A stretch of DNA of 64,000 nt. Origin: Deltaproteobacteria bacterium. Its GTDB lineage: Bacteria > Myxococcota_A > UBA9160 > UBA4427. The notes under the pieces were generated by a model. The model was given only the letters and a program-made list of their open reading frames with translations, had not been told where the DNA came from and searched no databases. The DNA is taken from assembly GCA_002691205.1 (NCBI GenBank), contig NZHD01000086.1:4651-68650 (forward strand), given 5' to 3'. A program made the translations under genes and the position numbers. Position 1 is the stretch's first letter, and every line of letters starts with the position of its first letter. Below are positions 7,045 to 47,371 of this stretch, piece by piece.

Positions 7045-9534
7045 TTATCCGGATGCTTTGGTCTTGCTTAGATCGACAAGGGTAACACCCTGGCCACCTT
7101 CTGAATTCGGAGGTGAGCTGATCTGTTCCGCATAATCCAATCCTGCGAGTTCTTCGCGAATAGCATTTCGTAGGGCTCCGGTACCTATGCCGTGAATGAT
7201 TCGAACGCCATCACGACGATCGGTGACTGCTCGGTCTATGACTTCTCTCAATCTGGATAAGGCGGAGAGCACTCGCTCACCACGAAGGTCGCATTCCTCG
7301 ACGCCTCCACCGAGCGTCCCAGCGGTTTCGCTTGGAACCGCTCTTTCGATGGAAACGTGAATTTCTTGACTTGCCGAGGCTTTCTTGGTTTTTGAGGCTC
7401 GAATGAGTCCGACGTTCGCTGCGTCCATCATCAATTTTTTGCCCTGAGAGCGGATGCCAACTCTACCTTTTCGGTCAGGAAGGCTCTCCAGGGTTCCGCT
7501 TCCGCCCAGAGCGAGTTCGACGGAGTCTCCCACCGAAATCTGAAGCCAGTCGATGGGAATGAGCTGGGAATCGCCTTTTGATTCTTTAGAGATGCCCAAG
7601 TCGTTGCGTGTGTTTTCGGCGGCCTTCTCCAACGCCAAGAGCTGCCCTCGAGCCTCAGCTGCTTGTTGAGAGCTCGGACCCCGCTGCAATTCACGAATGA
7701 CATCTGCGACTTCGTGATGTGCATTTGCGAAGGCTTGATCTAAGTCATCTCGCATACTGTGGAAGAGTTTTTCCCGACGCTCTTGGAGCCCTTCGAGTTT
7801 AATTCGATATTCATTTCGAGCGGCTTCGCCTTCAGCACGTACTCGGGCTGCAGAAGCTTGTTCTGCTTCGAGTTGTGCGCGCCGTGTCGAAAGTTCGCTG
7901 AGCATCTGATCCAGTCGCCGATCGTCGCGATCGAGAAGGCTCTTGGCTCGTTCGAGGACATCGTCCGGCATTCCCATTCGGGCAGCGACGGCAGAGGCTG
8001 AGCTGCTTCCTGGAGTGCCGATTTTTACCCGGTAGGTGGGCGCCAAGGTTTTAGCATCGAACTCCACGCTGGCGTTTTGAAATCGGGGGTCGACATCCGC
8101 CATTTCTTTGAGGAGGTTATAGTGTGTTGTAGTGACCACGCGAGCGCCCGTCTCGGCCAGGCGTTCCAAGATAGATTGAGCAAGGGCGGATCCCTCCGAC
8201 GGATCCGTACCGACTCCAATTTCGTCTAATGCAATGAACGCATTTTTTTCAGCCCTCTGGACCGTCTTCGCGAGGTTGGCCATATGGGCCGAAAAAGTAG
8301 AAAGGTTTTCGCCGATATCCTGATGGTCACCAATTTCTGCAAAGACAGAGCCTACGAGATCGACCCTTGCGCCGGCTTCGCAAGCCACATGAAGACCTGC
8401 TCTGACAAAAAGACAAGCGAGTGCAATTGATTTCATGCAAACCGTCTTCCCCCCCGCATTGGGCCCGGAAAGGACGAGAACGACAAAGTCATCTCCAATT
8501 CGGATGTCATTGGAAATGCATTCGTCTGGGTCAATCAACGGGTGGCGAAGAGCAGGAAGTTCAAAAATGCCCTGATCTTCGACCTTAGGCGAATGGGCTT
8601 GCAAGTTTTGAGACATTCGTCCTCGCGCGAAAGCGAGATCGATCCAGGACAAGGCTTCAAGGCTGCTTCGAATACGTCCACTGGCTTCACCGACACTTTG
8701 TGACAGTTCGCGGAGAATTCGTTGGATCTCTCGCGAGATCGTGAGCTCGCTCTGCTTAAGGCGGTTGTTTAGATCGATGACGGCTTCAGGCTCTATAAAT
8801 AATGTAGTCCCGGAGCGAGAGGCATCATGAACGATGCCTTTGACTTTACTTTTAGAATCAGAGCGAACGGGCAGGACGTATCTCTCGTTACGGAGCGTGA
8901 AGTAATTATCAGAGAGATGTTCCGTAACACTGCTATCGCTTAAATAACCTTGAAGCCGTTTTTGCAGATTGCCCGAGAGCGTGAGCGATGTTTTCCGCAT
9001 TTTAACAAGAAGCTGTGATGCGTCGTTCCGAACCTCACCGTCCGGGCCAATGACGGATTCGATTCTCGATTCCAGGCTTTCCTCGGGTTGAATTTGATCT
9101 GCCCACCGCCCTAAGTGGGGACATTCGTCGGCCTTTTGGTCGAGAAAGCGAGACATTTCACGAAACGTTCGGAGTACGTTTTTGAGATCCCGGAGAGATT
9201 CGAGTTCGATGACTCCCCCTCTTCCAGTTTGACCGAGGGCTTCAGTTAAATCTGGGGTAGACCCGAGCGGGGGCTGATGGCCGGCGTCCAGAAGAACGCG
9301 GGTTTCGTCGGTCTCGGCAAGGCGTTGATGGACTCCATCGAGCGTTTGCTCAAAGAAGTCTGCCCATGGGTGAGGCGCTTTTTGAATGGATGTGGAATTT
9401 TGCGTATTCGCTGTAATAGGGAGGCCTAGCAGACGCTCTCGTGCTTGATGGGTACGGCACAGATCAGCCAACCCTCGGACCACCCGAGGCCATTCCAATG
9501 ATTCCAGCGTTTCAGTCTCGACTCGAAAAGCCAC
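7045..9534 (-). CDS. mutS2: Endonuclease MutS2
   Basis: LVLSGPNAGGKTVCMKSIAL Walker A, ALDEIGVGTDPSEGSALAQ Walker B, C-terminal Smr domain (DLRGER...IIHGIGTGALRNAIREEL). Confidence 0.93.
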   Translation of the reverse strand: MAFRVETETLESLEWPRVVRGLADLCRTHQARERLLGLPITANTQNSTSIQKAPHPWADFFEQTLDGVHQRLAETDETRVLLDAGHQPPLGSTPDLTEALGQTGRGGVIELESLRDLKNVLRTFREMSRFLDQKADECPHLGRWADQIQPEESLESRIESVIGPDGEVRNDASQLLVKMRKTSLTLSGNLQKRLQGYLSDSSVTEHLSDNYFTLRNERYVLPVRSDSKSKVKGIVHDASRSGTTLFIEPEAVIDLNNRLKQSELTISREIQRILRELSQSVGEASGRIRSSLEALSWIDLAFARGRMSQNLQAHSPKVEDQGIFELPALRHPLIDPDECISNDIRIGDDFVVLVLSGPNAGGKTVCMKSIALACLFVRAGLHVACEAGARVDLVGSVFAEIGDHQDIGENLSTFSAHMANLAKTVQRAEKNAFIALDEIGVGTDPSEGSALAQSILERLAETGARVVTTTHYNLLKEMADVDPRFQNASVEFDAKTLAPTYRVKIGTPGSSSASAVAARMGMPDDVLERAKSLLDRDDRRLDQMLSELSTRRAQLEAEQASAARVRAEGEAARNEYRIKLEGLQERREKLFHSMRDDLDQAFANAHHEVADVIRELQRGPSSQQAAEARGQLLALEKAAENTRNDLGISKESKGDSQLIPIDWLQISVGDSVELALGGSGTLESLPDRKGRVGIRSQGKKLMMDAANVGLIRASKTKKASASQEIHVSIERAVPSETAGTLGGGVEECDLRGERVLSALSRLREVIDRAVTDRRDGVRIIHGIGTGALRNAIREELAGLDYAEQISSPPNSEGGQGVTLVDLSKTKASG

Positions 9535-13783: not shown

Positions 13784-14938
13784 ATGTACATGCGCCGAGA
13801 AATTTTTAGTGATGAGCATGATCATTTTCGCTCAGAGTTCCGCCGCTTTGCTGAGGCTGAGATCGTGCCTCATCTTGAGGATTGGAACCAGCGGGGCTTC
13901 AGTAGTAAAGACGCATGGAGGAAAATGGGTGCGTCCGGGTACCTGGGAGCAAACGCCCCGGAGGAATACGGGGGTGCTGGTGCAGGCTTCCTTTTTGAAG
14001 TGATCGTGATGGAAGAGCTCGCTGATTTGCGGGCTCATGCATTGCAGACTTCTGTGCACAGCGGCATCTGCATGCCCTACCTCATCCACTATGGAAACCC
14101 GGATCAGAAAAAGAAATATTTGTCGGATGCCATAGAGGGTTCGCGGGTTCTGGCCATCGCCATGACTGAGCCGGGTACGGGTTCCGATTTGGCGAATGTC
14201 CAGACACGCGCGATTCGTGAAGGCGATGAGTATGTCATCAACGGAGCGAAAACTTTTATTTCAAACGGGCAGAACTGCGGTCTCGTTTTTGTCGTAGCGA
14301 GAACCGATCCGGAAGCAGATCCTCCGCACAGCGGAATTAGCTTGATTATGGTGGAGGCTGAGACGGCTGGGTTTGAGAAGGGCCGCAACCTGAAGAAGCT
14401 TGGACTGAAGGGACAGGACACGAGCGAACTTTTTTTTAATGATTGTCGAGTTCCTGTGGAAAACAGATTGGGTGAAGAGGGACAAGGGTTTAAAATGTTG
14501 ATGGCTCAGCTTCAACAGGAACGCCTTTGCATCGCTGTGGGTTCTATTGCTTCTTGCCAGAGATCGTTAAAGGACACACTTAAATACGTCCAAGAACGAA
14601 AAGCATTCGGCCAGCCGATAGGTCAATTTCAGAACACGCAATTCAAGTTAGCGGAATTGGCGACGGAGGTTGAGATCGGGCAATGTTTTGTAGATCGACT
14701 GGTTATGGCTCATCTTAAGGGAGACGATCTTGTTTCAGAAGTGAGCATGGCAAAATATTGGATCTCAGACCTGCAGAAAAAAGTGGCTTCCGAGTGCCTC
14801 CAGTTGTTCGGTGGATATGGATTTATGGATGAATATCCTATTTCTCGAGACTATGCGGATGCAGCGGTTCAGTCTATTTATGCCGGGACAAATGAAATTA
14901 TGAAGGTGATCATTGCCCGCCGACTAGGCATTGGCTGA
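13784..14938 (+). CDS. Acyl-CoA dehydrogenase
   Basis: AIAMTEPGTGSDLANV, LQLFGGYGFMDEYPISRDYADA, IYAGTNEIMKVIIARRLG. Confidence 0.92.
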   Translation: MYMRREIFSDEHDHFRSEFRRFAEAEIVPHLEDWNQRGFSSKDAWRKMGASGYLGANAPEEYGGAGAGFLFEVIVMEELADLRAHALQTSVHSGICMPYLIHYGNPDQKKKYLSDAIEGSRVLAIAMTEPGTGSDLANVQTRAIREGDEYVINGAKTFISNGQNCGLVFVVARTDPEADPPHSGISLIMVEAETAGFEKGRNLKKLGLKGQDTSELFFNDCRVPVENRLGEEGQGFKMLMAQLQQERLCIAVGSIASCQRSLKDTLKYVQERKAFGQPIGQFQNTQFKLAELATEVEIGQCFVDRLVMAHLKGDDLVSEVSMAKYWISDLQKKVASECLQLFGGYGFMDEYPISRDYADAAVQSIYAGTNEIMKVIIARRLGIG

Positions 14939-42734: not shown

Positions 42735-43421
42735 ATGACTGATCAAAACAGCGACGCCATCGCGATTCTCGGTGGCACAGGAGACCAAGGATTAGGGCTG
42801 GCGCTTCGTTTCGCGCAAGCGGGGCGTTCGGTGGTCATTGGTTCACGTAAAGAGGAACGGGCTCTGGCAGCGGCCGAGGAGGTCCGAAACGCGGTCCCAA
42901 ATGCTCAGGTCACCGGTCACGGTAATGAGGAGGCGACGCGCCTTGCTCCGATCGTGATTATATCGGTGCCTTTTGAACACACTGCAGGGACCGTTAAAGC
43001 GATTCGAGACTCTCTGTCTGAAGGTCAAATTCTGGTTTCCATGGCTGTTCCTCTCGCTACAGCGGTGGGGGACGGTGCCGCCCGAACTGTGGGGATTTGG
43101 CAAGGGTCGGCCGCCGAGATGGTCGACTCGTTGGCCCCTAAAGGGGTTCACGTTGTGTCCGCTTTTCAGAATGTGTCGGCTCACAGGCTTCGTGCCCTTG
43201 GCGAATCGGTTGAATGTGACGTCGTCGTCTCTGGCCCCAAAGCGGCCCGAGAAAAGGTGATGGAGCTATGTCCCCTAGTGGATGGCCTGCGGGCTGTGAA
43301 CGGTGGGCCTTTGTCGAACGCTCGAACGGTCGAGATGATCACGGCGCTTCTCATCGGAATGAACATTCGGTACAAGCAACCAGACGGTATGGGGATCCGG
43401 TTTACCGGCTTGCCCGACTAG
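42735..43421 (+). CDS. npdG: NADPH-dependent F420 reductase
   Basis: IAILGGTGDQGLGLALRFAQAGRSVVIGSRKEERA, VVSAFQNVSAHRL, C-terminal IRFTGLPD. Confidence 0.82.
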   Translation: MTDQNSDAIAILGGTGDQGLGLALRFAQAGRSVVIGSRKEERALAAAEEVRNAVPNAQVTGHGNEEATRLAPIVIISVPFEHTAGTVKAIRDSLSEGQILVSMAVPLATAVGDGAARTVGIWQGSAAEMVDSLAPKGVHVVSAFQNVSAHRLRALGESVECDVVVSGPKAAREKVMELCPLVDGLRAVNGGPLSNARTVEMITALLIGMNIRYKQPDGMGIRFTGLPD

Positions 43422-43838
43422 CTCCTCACGAACCTCTGTCGCACTCGAGTTTGGCCCGAAGCTCAGCTGAGCTCCATGGGACACGCTTGTCGCCCCGCGG
43501 GCCTTAGGGTTTGGTTCTTCTCTGTCTTGAAAACCGGTCTGGCCACAATAGGTTGTGGTTGTCTTTCCATGAAACCCCAATATTTTGTGTTTTTCGGGTT
43601 GACTTGCGAGGCCTCCCAAAGCATCTTGCTTGAACGGGGATGTGATGTTCCTCCTGTAGCCTGGGGGGGTCGCAACTTGGCGGTTGCGGGGAGGGACAAG
43701 AGCCTTAGACCGGGGTCATGCTCGTCGTTTGTCATCTCCTGAAGGGCAAACGAGGAGTCAGCCTGGCTCGGGTTCGGGGGCGTCGGGGGTACCGGCGCTC
43801 CCCTCATCTGCTCGCAGGGGGAACCAACAAAACAAAAA

Positions 43839-43868
43839 GGCCGCAGTCAAAAATGAGCTTCTGTGGTC
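43839..43868 (+). other. RNA hairpin candidate in the long intergenic region
   Basis: GGCCGCAG...CTGTGGTC pairs fully as plus-strand RNA with two G-U wobbles; as minus-strand RNA it has two A-C mismatches but is followed by a T-rich tract. Confidence 0.4.
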
Positions 43869-44581
43869 TTAAAGGCACAAGTGGTTTCTCAAATTTCTAG
43901 ATAGATGCACGTCTCGGTACGCGCCCACGTCCCGAAGTTGGAAGACAGCACTGTGAACAACGAACACTCGACACCAAAGTAAAAGAATAAGTTGATCAAG
44001 ATCGAAACAGAGAAACAACGGCAGAGAAAAAATAAATCAAATTCAAATGCGGCATGTCGCCGGAAGGCAGCGAGCAGCACCTAACTCAAAAGACGAGGTT
44101 GAACGCGCAGCGAAAAGGGAAGTTTTGGGAAGTTTGATCAAAGTCCCGCTTTCCATCGAAAGTCCAAGAAGAGCCAGAAACGAACTCTGTTTGATTTTAG
44201 TGGCGCTTCATCGTGGTACTTGAAGGTGGCAAGGTTGGCTTGAAGAGCTTTGTATCCTGGATCGTTGACGCATCGTCCTTAGACATTGAAAGATAAGAAA
44301 GATTTGAATCAGAAAGATTGATTAGCTGGGAATTGGGCCGGGAGATCCCGCCGAGGGTCTGGACCCGAAACCCACTGAGAGGGCCCGAAAGCCTAAAAAA
44401 GAACACCTTTTGATTTAAGGCACTGAGAGAGTGAGTGGCTAAATTCAAAATTTTTTTTGGGAGCGGTGCCGAAAAAGTCTAAGGCGGGTGAAGAGAATCC
44501 AAAGAGGTTCGATAAGCTTGCAGATTCAAATCAAAATGCTCAAAGCTAAGCGGACTGCATGACAGCAATGGGGGGCGAACC

Positions 44582-47371
44582 GTGAACGATTCAAGAGAAA
44601 TGATGGCCAAAGCAGCGGACTCTAAGGGCTCAGGACCAGCAAGCAGCAAAAGCGCCAAGCGAACTAAAAAAACAAAGGGCGAAGGGCGCGGCCTAAAGAT
44701 TGATCGGCACTTCACGCAGCGCGGCGAAAACCCCTTTGACCTTGTCGAATGGGAATTGCGAACCGCAGGAATCAACAACGAGTCAGGCGAAACGGTTTTC
44801 GAGCAAACGGACGTCGAAATTCCAGCGAGTTGGTCTCAGCTGGCGACGAACGTTGTCGTGTCGAAATACTTCCGTGGCCACGTGGGTCAGCCCGGTCGCG
44901 AGCGCAGTATCAAGGAGTTGATCGGTCGTGTCGTGGGTCGGATCACTGAGTGGGGGCACGAAGGCGGGTACTTCGCCAGCGATGAGGATGCCGAAGCTTT
45001 TTCAGATGAGCTCACACATTTGCTGCTTCATCAGAAAATGGCCTTCAACAGTCCCGTTTGGTTCAACCTGGGTGTGCCGGATACACCGCAGCAAGCGAGC
45101 GCATGCTTCATCAACTCCGTTGAGGACAAGATGGAGTCGATCATGGATCTCGCAAAGACTGAAGCGATGTTGTTTAAGGGAGGTTCGGGCGCAGGAACAA
45201 ATATCTCAGCGATTCGCTCTTCTCGAGAGCAGTTGGCGGGTGGAGGCATGGCGTCGGGCCCGGTCTCGTTCATGCGGGGCTTTGATGCTTTCGCGGGCGT
45301 GATTAAGTCGGGTGGAAAGACGCGTCGAGCCGCGAAGATGGTCATTTTGAATGTCGAGCATCCAGACATTTTGGATTTCATTCGCTCCAAGCAGAGCGAA
45401 GAGGAAAAAGCTTGGGCATTGATCGACGCTGGCTATGACGGAGGCTTCAATGTCCCGGGTGGTGCCTACGATTCGATTTTCTTTCAGAATGCGAATCATT
45501 CGGTTCGAGTGACAGACTCCTTTATGGAAAGTGCCGAGAACGGCGACACTTGGGACACTCGTTCGATCACAACAGGCAAGCGTGTAGACACTCATGAGGC
45601 GAAAGACCTTTTGCGAGAGATGGCGGAAGCCGCTCATGTTTGTGGTGATCCTGGGATCCAGTATGACACGACGATTAACCGCTGGAATCCGGTGAAGTCC
45701 TCGGGTCGTATTAACTCAAGTAATCCTTGCTCCGAGTACATGTTCCTAGATGATACGGCGTGTAATCTGGCGAGTTTGAACCTGATGACCTTTGCCGATG
45801 AGCAAGGTGCATTTGAAGTCGAGGATTTCAAGCGGTCGGTGGCCATCACGATTCTGGCCCAGGAAATACTGGTTGATTTTGCCAGCTATCCAACCAAGGC
45901 CATTGAGAAAAATAGCCACTTGTATCGGCCGTTGGGGCTCGGGTACGCGAACCTAGGTGCTCTTTTGATGTCGAGTGGGAAGCCGTACGACAGTCAAGAA
46001 GGCCGAGACCTGTCCGCTTCAATTACTTCATTGATGTGTGGCCAGGCTTATTTGACGAGTGCTCAAATTGCAGAAGCCATGGGGCCTTTCTCTCGGTACA
46101 AGACCAACCGAAAGCCGTTTATCGAGGTGATCGGGATGCATCGCGACGCGGCGCAAGAGCTTGAGGGCGAGACGGTTCAGGCCGACTTGCTCGAGCAGTC
46201 TAAGACGGTGTGGGACCAAGCTTTGGAGTTAGGCAAAGAGCACGGGTATAAAAATGCGCAGGTGACAGTTCTGGCTCCAACAGGAACCATCGCTTTTATG
46301 ATGGACTGCGACACGACAGGGGTCGAGCCCGACATCGCTTTGGTCAAGTACAAGAAATTGGTGGGGGGTGGCTTTCTTAAGATTGTCAACAACACGGTTC
46401 CTATGGCTCTGGATCGACTGGGCTACAGCGAGGAAGATCGGAACTCAATCTTGGCCTACGTCGATGAGCACGAGACAATCGAAGGGGCCCCGGGCTTGTT
46501 GGAAGAGCACTTGCCGGTCTTTGACTGCGCTTTTAGGGCTCAGAACGGACAGCGTTCGATCCATTGGATGGGGCATGTTCGGATGATGGGCGCCGTTCAA
46601 CCGTTCCTCTCGGGAGCCATCAGCAAGACTGTGAACCTGCCAGCCGATGCCTCCGTGGACGATGTGATGGAAGCGTACACGCAGGGGTGGCATCTAGGTC
46701 TTAAGGCGCTCGCCATTTACAGGGACGGAAGTAAGCGAACGCAGCCTTTGAATTCGGGTCGCGATGAAAAGGACAATGTCACTCGGCTAGAAGATTACCG
46801 GCCGATGAGGAGGAAGCTTGACGATGAGCGTCAAGCATTCACTCATAAGTTCTCGATTGCCGGTCACGAGGGTTACCTGACTATCGGAATGTACCAAGAG
46901 GGCGATCCGGGTGAAATCTTCCTTAAGATGGCGAAAGAAGGAAGCACCATTTCGGGATTAATGGATACGATTGCGACGATGACGTCCATTGCACTTCAAT
47001 ACGGAGTGCCTCTCAAAGCGTTGGTCGATAAATTCAGCCACACTCGCTTTGAGCCTTCCGGATTCACGAATAACAAGGAAATCCCGATCGCGAAGTCCGT
47101 CATGGATTACGTGTTCCGTTATCTCGGCAATCGCTTTATTGAGGTTGATGGCCAAGTGATTGAAGCCGAGTCAGGCACGAGTTCTTCAGAGCCGGTGGCT
47201 GTGATCGGTGCGGTGGCGGGAGGCTCTGGGGCGGGAATTGAGCGAGAGGCGACCTCCAGCTTCATAAACCAAGCCGACGCGCCTTCCTGCATGGATTGTG
47301 GATCAATTATGATTCGCAACGGCGCTTGTTACAAATGCGCCAACTGCGGCAGCACAAGCGGTTGCAGCTGA
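44582..47371 (+). CDS. nrdJ: Vitamin B12-dependent (class II) ribonucleotide reductase
   Basis: MAFNSPVWFNLG, ACFINSVEDKMESIMDLAK, NPCSEYMFLDDTACNLASLNL, C-terminal CMDCGSIMIRNGACYKCANCGSTSGCS. Confidence 0.95.
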   Translation: MNDSREMMAKAADSKGSGPASSKSAKRTKKTKGEGRGLKIDRHFTQRGENPFDLVEWELRTAGINNESGETVFEQTDVEIPASWSQLATNVVVSKYFRGHVGQPGRERSIKELIGRVVGRITEWGHEGGYFASDEDAEAFSDELTHLLLHQKMAFNSPVWFNLGVPDTPQQASACFINSVEDKMESIMDLAKTEAMLFKGGSGAGTNISAIRSSREQLAGGGMASGPVSFMRGFDAFAGVIKSGGKTRRAAKMVILNVEHPDILDFIRSKQSEEEKAWALIDAGYDGGFNVPGGAYDSIFFQNANHSVRVTDSFMESAENGDTWDTRSITTGKRVDTHEAKDLLREMAEAAHVCGDPGIQYDTTINRWNPVKSSGRINSSNPCSEYMFLDDTACNLASLNLMTFADEQGAFEVEDFKRSVAITILAQEILVDFASYPTKAIEKNSHLYRPLGLGYANLGALLMSSGKPYDSQEGRDLSASITSLMCGQAYLTSAQIAEAMGPFSRYKTNRKPFIEVIGMHRDAAQELEGETVQADLLEQSKTVWDQALELGKEHGYKNAQVTVLAPTGTIAFMMDCDTTGVEPDIALVKYKKLVGGGFLKIVNNTVPMALDRLGYSEEDRNSILAYVDEHETIEGAPGLLEEHLPVFDCAFRAQNGQRSIHWMGHVRMMGAVQPFLSGAISKTVNLPADASVDDVMEAYTQGWHLGLKALAIYRDGSKRTQPLNSGRDEKDNVTRLEDYRPMRRKLDDERQAFTHKFSIAGHEGYLTIGMYQEGDPGEIFLKMAKEGSTISGLMDTIATMTSIALQYGVPLKALVDKFSHTRFEPSGFTNNKEIPIAKSVMDYVFRYLGNRFIEVDGQVIEAESGTSSSEPVAVIGAVAGGSGAGIEREATSSFINQADAPSCMDCGSIMIRNGACYKCANCGSTSGCS

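Follow-up and report, generated by a model that had tools for sequence, protein, structure and literature searches.

Ribonucleotide reductases (RNRs) supply all DNA precursors, and the known nucleotide-responsive control of their genes is the repressor NrdR, which responds to dATP/ATP. The known control by RNA consists of cobalamin riboswitches on B12-independent RNR genes, whose expression is lowered by B12, and metagenome surveys are said to have turned up a motif of structured RNA upstream of nrdJ, the gene for the adenosylcobalamin (AdoCbl)-dependent, class II enzyme. In Propionibacterium acnes, cobalamin riboswitches have been annotated in the nrdAB and nrdDG leaders and not in that of nrdRJ (PMC3848588). 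NrdR itself has been described as well fitted to bind, at the promoters of RNR genes, a pair of boxes separated by ~three helical turns (PMC9110341). Here we describe a locus at which a B12-dependent RNR, the only one detected in its genome, bears an uncatalogued RNA of its own.

The locus lies in a 64-kb stretch of DNA, analysed as a whole and called the window below, from a 4.55 Mb assembly that is 94% complete. The npdG gene ends at 43421 and nrdJ begins with GTG at 44582, so the gap between them (43422-44581) is exactly 1160 nt and, as the original prediction had it, exceeds every other gap of the window. It keeps this rank under greedy ORF calling: counting a spurious antisense ORF of 114 aa still leaves it at 774 nt, whereas the second-longest gap has 448 nt and the median is 61 nt. 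The gene downstream had been read as a class II RNR and passes the equivalog cut-off as such, with 575 bits for TIGR02504 (cut-off 400) and 1410 bits for PRK06556 (cut-off 859). NrdJ is the only RNR detected: the 94%-complete assembly holds one match to PF02867 (class I/II large subunit), and neither the class I small subunit PF00268 nor the class III family PF13597 was found in it. The part from ~43.9 to 44.55 kb had also been described as free of convincing ORFs; the ORFs of the gap that we tested have no NCBIfam family match. Two ORFs, at 43476-43742 (+) and 43463-43807 (−), cover a conserved stretch and were rejected as coding; similarity is equal on both strands and relatives have stops, so it is the DNA and not a reading frame that is conserved there.

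The A-richness predicted for ~43.9-44.55 kb is real, the frequency of A at 43900-44550 being 0.337 against a window mean of 0.214 (s.d. 0.026), a value reached in 2 of 1267 sliding windows. Conservation, however, lies elsewhere. With the gap as query, a DNA search of 61 genomes (the window's own and 60 relatives) matched 30, almost always at query positions 120-390, which correspond to window positions 43541-43811. The A-rich stretch gave no match in that search and could not be usefully aligned even with the window's congeneric sister species. Its folding is unremarkable (z = −1.7 vs shuffles), and in relatives it is replaced by leaders differing greatly in length and composition. To judge from these comparisons, the A-rich part is a fast-evolving spacer, and the conserved block is the G+C-rich sequence just upstream of it. 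The suggestion of a long 5′ leader or a small RNA was thus right in that a conserved structured RNA precedes nrdJ and mistaken as to its place, since the A-rich 43.9-44.55 kb is unconserved. The outcome that would have spoken against any such RNA, a sequence unconserved in relatives or a decayed gene, is not what we found for 43632-43813.

The RNA encoded there is ~180 nt long and G+C-rich, and its helix P1 closes a junction of P2, P3 and P4 (Table 1). In the alignment, the elements follow one another in the order NrdR boxes, TTGAC, a variable stretch, an invariant ACGGGGATGTGA (from 43634), GCCTGGGGGGGT and GGCGGT, and the 3′ end of the conserved stretch is a G+C-rich hairpin ending in CTCATC. 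P1 is longer in many relatives, and P3 carries an extra hairpin in the window's genus and a GGGAUGGAGGACC loop in most relatives. This loop (e.g. in locus L061, 4046-4191 (−)) contains GGAGG, a perfect Shine-Dalgarno-like sequence that no start codon consistently follows. In genus g10 (L107-L112) the P3 arm has an insertion of ~120 nt, with P4 and the 3′ strand of P1 intact downstream; the seemingly different 3′ half of these loci comes from this insertion. An alternative hairpin within P2, CGCAAC/GUUGCG, fits the window's family and was set aside as the local fold, the extended P2 being the order-wide form; the RNA may possibly switch from one to the other. Two further ideas, that the P2 tip forms a G-quadruplex and that P3 mimics P1, were judged by eye and dropped because some families do not keep the letters concerned.

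Table 1. Features of the npdG-nrdJ region, in window coordinates
Feature	Position	Strand	Basis or remark
npdG-like F420-NADPH reductase gene, usual upstream neighbour	42735..43421	+	protein family search
Possible terminator of npdG	43498..43513	+	weak consensus match; matches not above shuffles
NrdR box 1 (CCACAATAGGTTGTGG)	43543..43558	+	box pair in oriented alignment
NrdR box 2 (CCCCAATATTTTGTGT)	43575..43590	+	box pair in oriented alignment
−35 element TTGACT	43599..43604	+	near-invariant TTGAC at 43599-43603
Conserved structured RNA, four-helix junction (main finding)	43632..43813	+	alignment, covariation, covariance models
P1, 5′ strand GAUG, pairs with CAUC 43805-43808	43639..43642	+	alignment
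P2 arm, near-invariant apical CCUGGGGGGGU and GGCGGU	43647..43697	+	alignment
P3 arm, length variable	43699..43775	+	alignment
P4, G+C-rich hairpin, many compensatory changes	43776..43802	+	covariation
Variable A-rich leader spacer	43814..44581	+	not conserved
nrdJ, AdoCbl-dependent (class II) ribonucleotide reductase	44582..47371	+	TIGR02504, PRK06556

When 23 sequences were aligned without structure, RNAalifold returned the four-helix junction, with compensatory changes in 19 of 43 pairs. In a named 38-pair version of this structure, 97.7% of the cells of the 23 sequences are paired and double changes are found in 17 of the 38 pairs and 53 cells, as compared with 8.8 ± 1.8 pairs and 16.6 ± 4.2 cells in shuffles; none of the slid versions came close. 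The covariation analysis of relatives that had been proposed with the original prediction also came out in favour of a structured RNA: across 64 sequences from ten families, in an alignment again made without structure, 31 of 50 pairs and 250 cells show double changes, against 21.7 ± 2.1 pairs and 80 ± 10 cells in shuffles. These totals count related rows repeatedly, and the slid controls, which retain that relatedness, fall far below them at 36-74 cells. The window RNA folds with z = −5.4, and not one of 200 shuffles was equally stable. That a conserved structured leader RNA exists at 43632-43813 we consider practically certain.

Two palindromic boxes ~three helical turns apart and an NrdR encoded in the genome are the marks of an NrdR-regulated promoter, and both are present here. 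Box spacing is 32 nt in 42 of 58 loci from across the order, and the NrdR gene scores 163.6 bits for TIGR00244 (cut-off 124.65). The TTGAC lies ~31-36 nt upstream of the model start in most loci, and standard −35 spacing would place the nrdJ +1 at about 43634, the A of ACGGGG; the −10 is weak in the window, with no sigma-70 match at the scan threshold. If transcription of nrdJ starts at this point under the tandem NrdR-box operator, the mRNA would open directly with the ~180-nt structured RNA.

A search with a covariance model (R1) detected the RNA in 71 of the 80 genomes of the order, nearly always as a single copy, and in none of the 299 genomes that make up the rest of the phylum sample. 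This order most probably corresponds to UBA9160 of GTDB, which has been placed in Myxococcota (PMC10919026). Among 60 fetched loci, nrdJ lies downstream on the same strand in 58, which come from 10 families; the two exceptions are a contig end (L104) and a marginal match of 26 bits (L106). Nine genomes of the order have no R1 match. In two, of family f9, nrdJ is present and the RNA absent, so the RNA is dispensable there, and f9 genome G037 retains the NrdR boxes. Of the remainder, G019 has an nrdJ that begins at base 2 of its contig, G065, G052 and G042 yielded only partial NrdJ, and the search for NrdJ returned nothing in G016 and distant matches only in G059 and G070. Three f9 loci (L028, L248 and L249) have nrdJ without the RNA, and L028 keeps the NrdR boxes ahead of a short leader. 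Elsewhere, locus L066 (G005, contig C122, 1294-1438) is a second, f7-like RNA with nrdJ in a genome already having its own copy, probably on a contaminant contig of the assembly, and L072 and L073 (G062, contigs C24 and C115), which have identical model scores, are a single locus represented on two contigs of that assembly, probably through double assembly.

Scanning 84,980 genomes with a sequence pattern, one too strict to detect the neighbouring order, turned up 116 loci. At E below 1e-4 the model confirms 46 of these, every one from the same order; the others are taken as chance. When 379 genomes of the phylum were searched with a second model (R2), built from the order only with the neighbouring order excluded, two matches fell outside the order. 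Both come from a family of the same class, f12 (E 2e-8 and 9e-8), and lie directly upstream of nrdJ: the RNA ends at 14608 and NrdJ homology starts at 14773 in G160, and at 8406 and 8582, respectively, in G198. A targeted search of f12 nrdJ loci found the RNA in 7 of 9 (E 1e-6 to 5e-10). In f12, P1 is formed by different complementary strands (CAAGGA/UCCUUG, CAGGGG/CCCCUG). Most loci there keep all four helices, and TTGAC and box-like sequences are found upstream of the RNA. The NrdJ tree sets f12 apart as a separate supported group and nests f9 within the order; its branches inside the order have modest support, and row L119 is wrongly placed, on a long branch. From these positions the RNA probably arose before the two orders diverged and has since disappeared from f9; it is shared by at least two orders of uncultured Myxococcota.

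By its conserved structure and its exclusive association with one gene, the RNA presents itself as a cis-acting regulatory element of nrdJ, one that probably helps set the amount of NrdJ made. Riboswitches generally have an aptamer-like domain of conserved structure that lies in the 5′ leader of a gene related to it in metabolism, and such a domain is found at this locus. Linkage to one gene, a position at the transcript start, a P1-closed junction and near-invariant letters at the P2 tip together make the RNA look like a leader that senses a ligand or a protein. As to the expression platform, there is no conserved terminator after the RNA and none beyond chance in the window; T-runs follow the RNA in a minority of relatives only, and attenuation by an intrinsic terminator was rejected for want of a conserved T-run. 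The distance from the RNA to the start codon ranges from tens of nucleotides to over 1 kb, with the ribosome-binding site at a variable distance. Because this distance varies and no terminator follows, the output is probably distance-independent, and would be control of elongation or of mRNA stability. In the mechanism that we propose, the RNA would sense a compound tied to NrdJ, either AdoCbl or a nucleotide/deoxynucleotide, and would thereby adjust nrdJ expression after initiation, atop the dATP/ATP control exerted by NrdR.

We give a probability of about 0.5 to the reading of the RNA as a cis-acting regulatory leader that is riboswitch-like and has a distance-independent output. The fuller proposal, that of a new riboswitch class which predates the order split, senses AdoCbl or a (deoxy)nucleotide and controls the sole class II RNR, is more tentative, with the odds somewhat against it; AdoCbl and deoxynucleotides are the first candidates for the ligand. 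Were a riboswitch present, the supply of DNA precursors would be watched by two layers of sensing, with NrdR acting at the DNA and an aptamer in the mRNA. Sensing of AdoCbl or a deoxynucleotide would make the finding clearly more important and would define a new class of aptamer, one for a central metabolite; the matching of RNR level to cofactor and dNTP supply in organisms with class II RNR alone would then become directly testable.

The main rivals of the riboswitch-like reading are elements that act on stability only and elements that bind a protein, since a protein-binding or mRNA-protecting element would leave much the same pattern. A 5′-terminal stability or processing element, in which P1 sequesters the first nucleotides and shields the long leader from 5′-end-dependent decay with no ligand involved, would suit an RNA that starts at the predicted +1 and is as stable as this one, and its distance-independent output would suit the variable leader. 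Such an element needs helices only, yet the P2 tip is near-invariant (CCUGGGGG..GGCGGU) and part of it, the G-run, is kept across the two orders; we hold this explanation to be unlikely. A somewhat weaker case can be made for a site bound by a regulatory protein, for instance a translational regulator of the CsrA/RsmA type or an antitermination factor. Regulators of the former type prefer GGA in hairpin loops, and the GGGAUGGAGGACC of most relatives and the GGAGGAGG of the neighbouring order would present GGA in the loop of P3. The P3 loop motif is absent, however, from the window's genus and several related genera, and it is the P2 tip that is kept, so that the proposal appears doubtful.

More improbable still is a stand-alone small RNA, 6S-like or otherwise trans-acting, that adjoins nrdJ and shares its NrdR promoter. 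A structured RNA right behind a promoter would be expected of it, and the genome's lack of a 6S match leaves that slot open, but the RNA is followed by no conserved terminator, keeps its place before nrdJ across 10 families (58 loci) as well as in the neighbouring order, and has a junction in place of a long bubble hairpin. That the gap holds only a long A-rich leader or a decayed gene, and nothing more, is scarcely credible: its composition is unusual, but the A-rich part is unconserved, the tested ORFs match no family, and a conserved RNA for which that reading is already refuted (43632-43813) precedes it.

The riboswitch-like leader is best described as a candidate orphan riboswitch, from an uncatalogued family of structured cis-regulatory leaders, and it can be compared with several known systems. 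In a scan of the complete window against Rfam 15 (4227 families), nothing reached the gathering score, and a search of the region at E up to 10 and of eight relatives returned weak chance matches only. The Rfam scan first suggested for this gap, with the nrdJ-associated motif in mind, therefore came back empty, and the RNA does not belong to any nrdJ-associated family that Rfam 15 contains. Like the motif reportedly seen in metagenome surveys, it is a structured RNA upstream of nrdJ; no Rfam 15 family matches it, and a literature text search for that motif gave no match; our claim to novelty is limited accordingly to a family uncatalogued in Rfam 15. With 6S RNA (RF00013), the first guess from size and position, it shares a length of ~180 nt and the character of a structured bacterial RNA, and it differs in its junction architecture and strict nrdJ linkage; RF00013 matches neither the region nor the genome, and the 6S assignment was rejected.

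The cobalamin riboswitch (RF00174) is likewise a structured 5′-leader RNA tied to cobalamin biology, whereas the RNA described here has another junction and other conserved letters and stands on the B12-dependent RNR gene itself, where RF00174 gave no match in the region even at E 10. The same genome carries a canonical RF00174 element (L121, 1501-1745 (−), 83.7 bits) upstream of an ORF for a putative secreted or surface protein, which suggests B12-responsive control elsewhere in the genome; as the model finds this clear element, its negative result at the nrdJ leader carries weight where that class is concerned. To have a leader RNA directly on nrdJ is also unlike the precedent of P. acnes, given where riboswitches are annotated in that species. 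Another related system is the NrdR regulon, in which tandem palindromic boxes stand by the promoter (PMC9110341), as they do here at 32 nt. The papers that we found describe no leader RNA layered on an NrdR-controlled nrdJ. NrdR acts at the level of DNA, and the leader RNA would add to it an extra layer of control.
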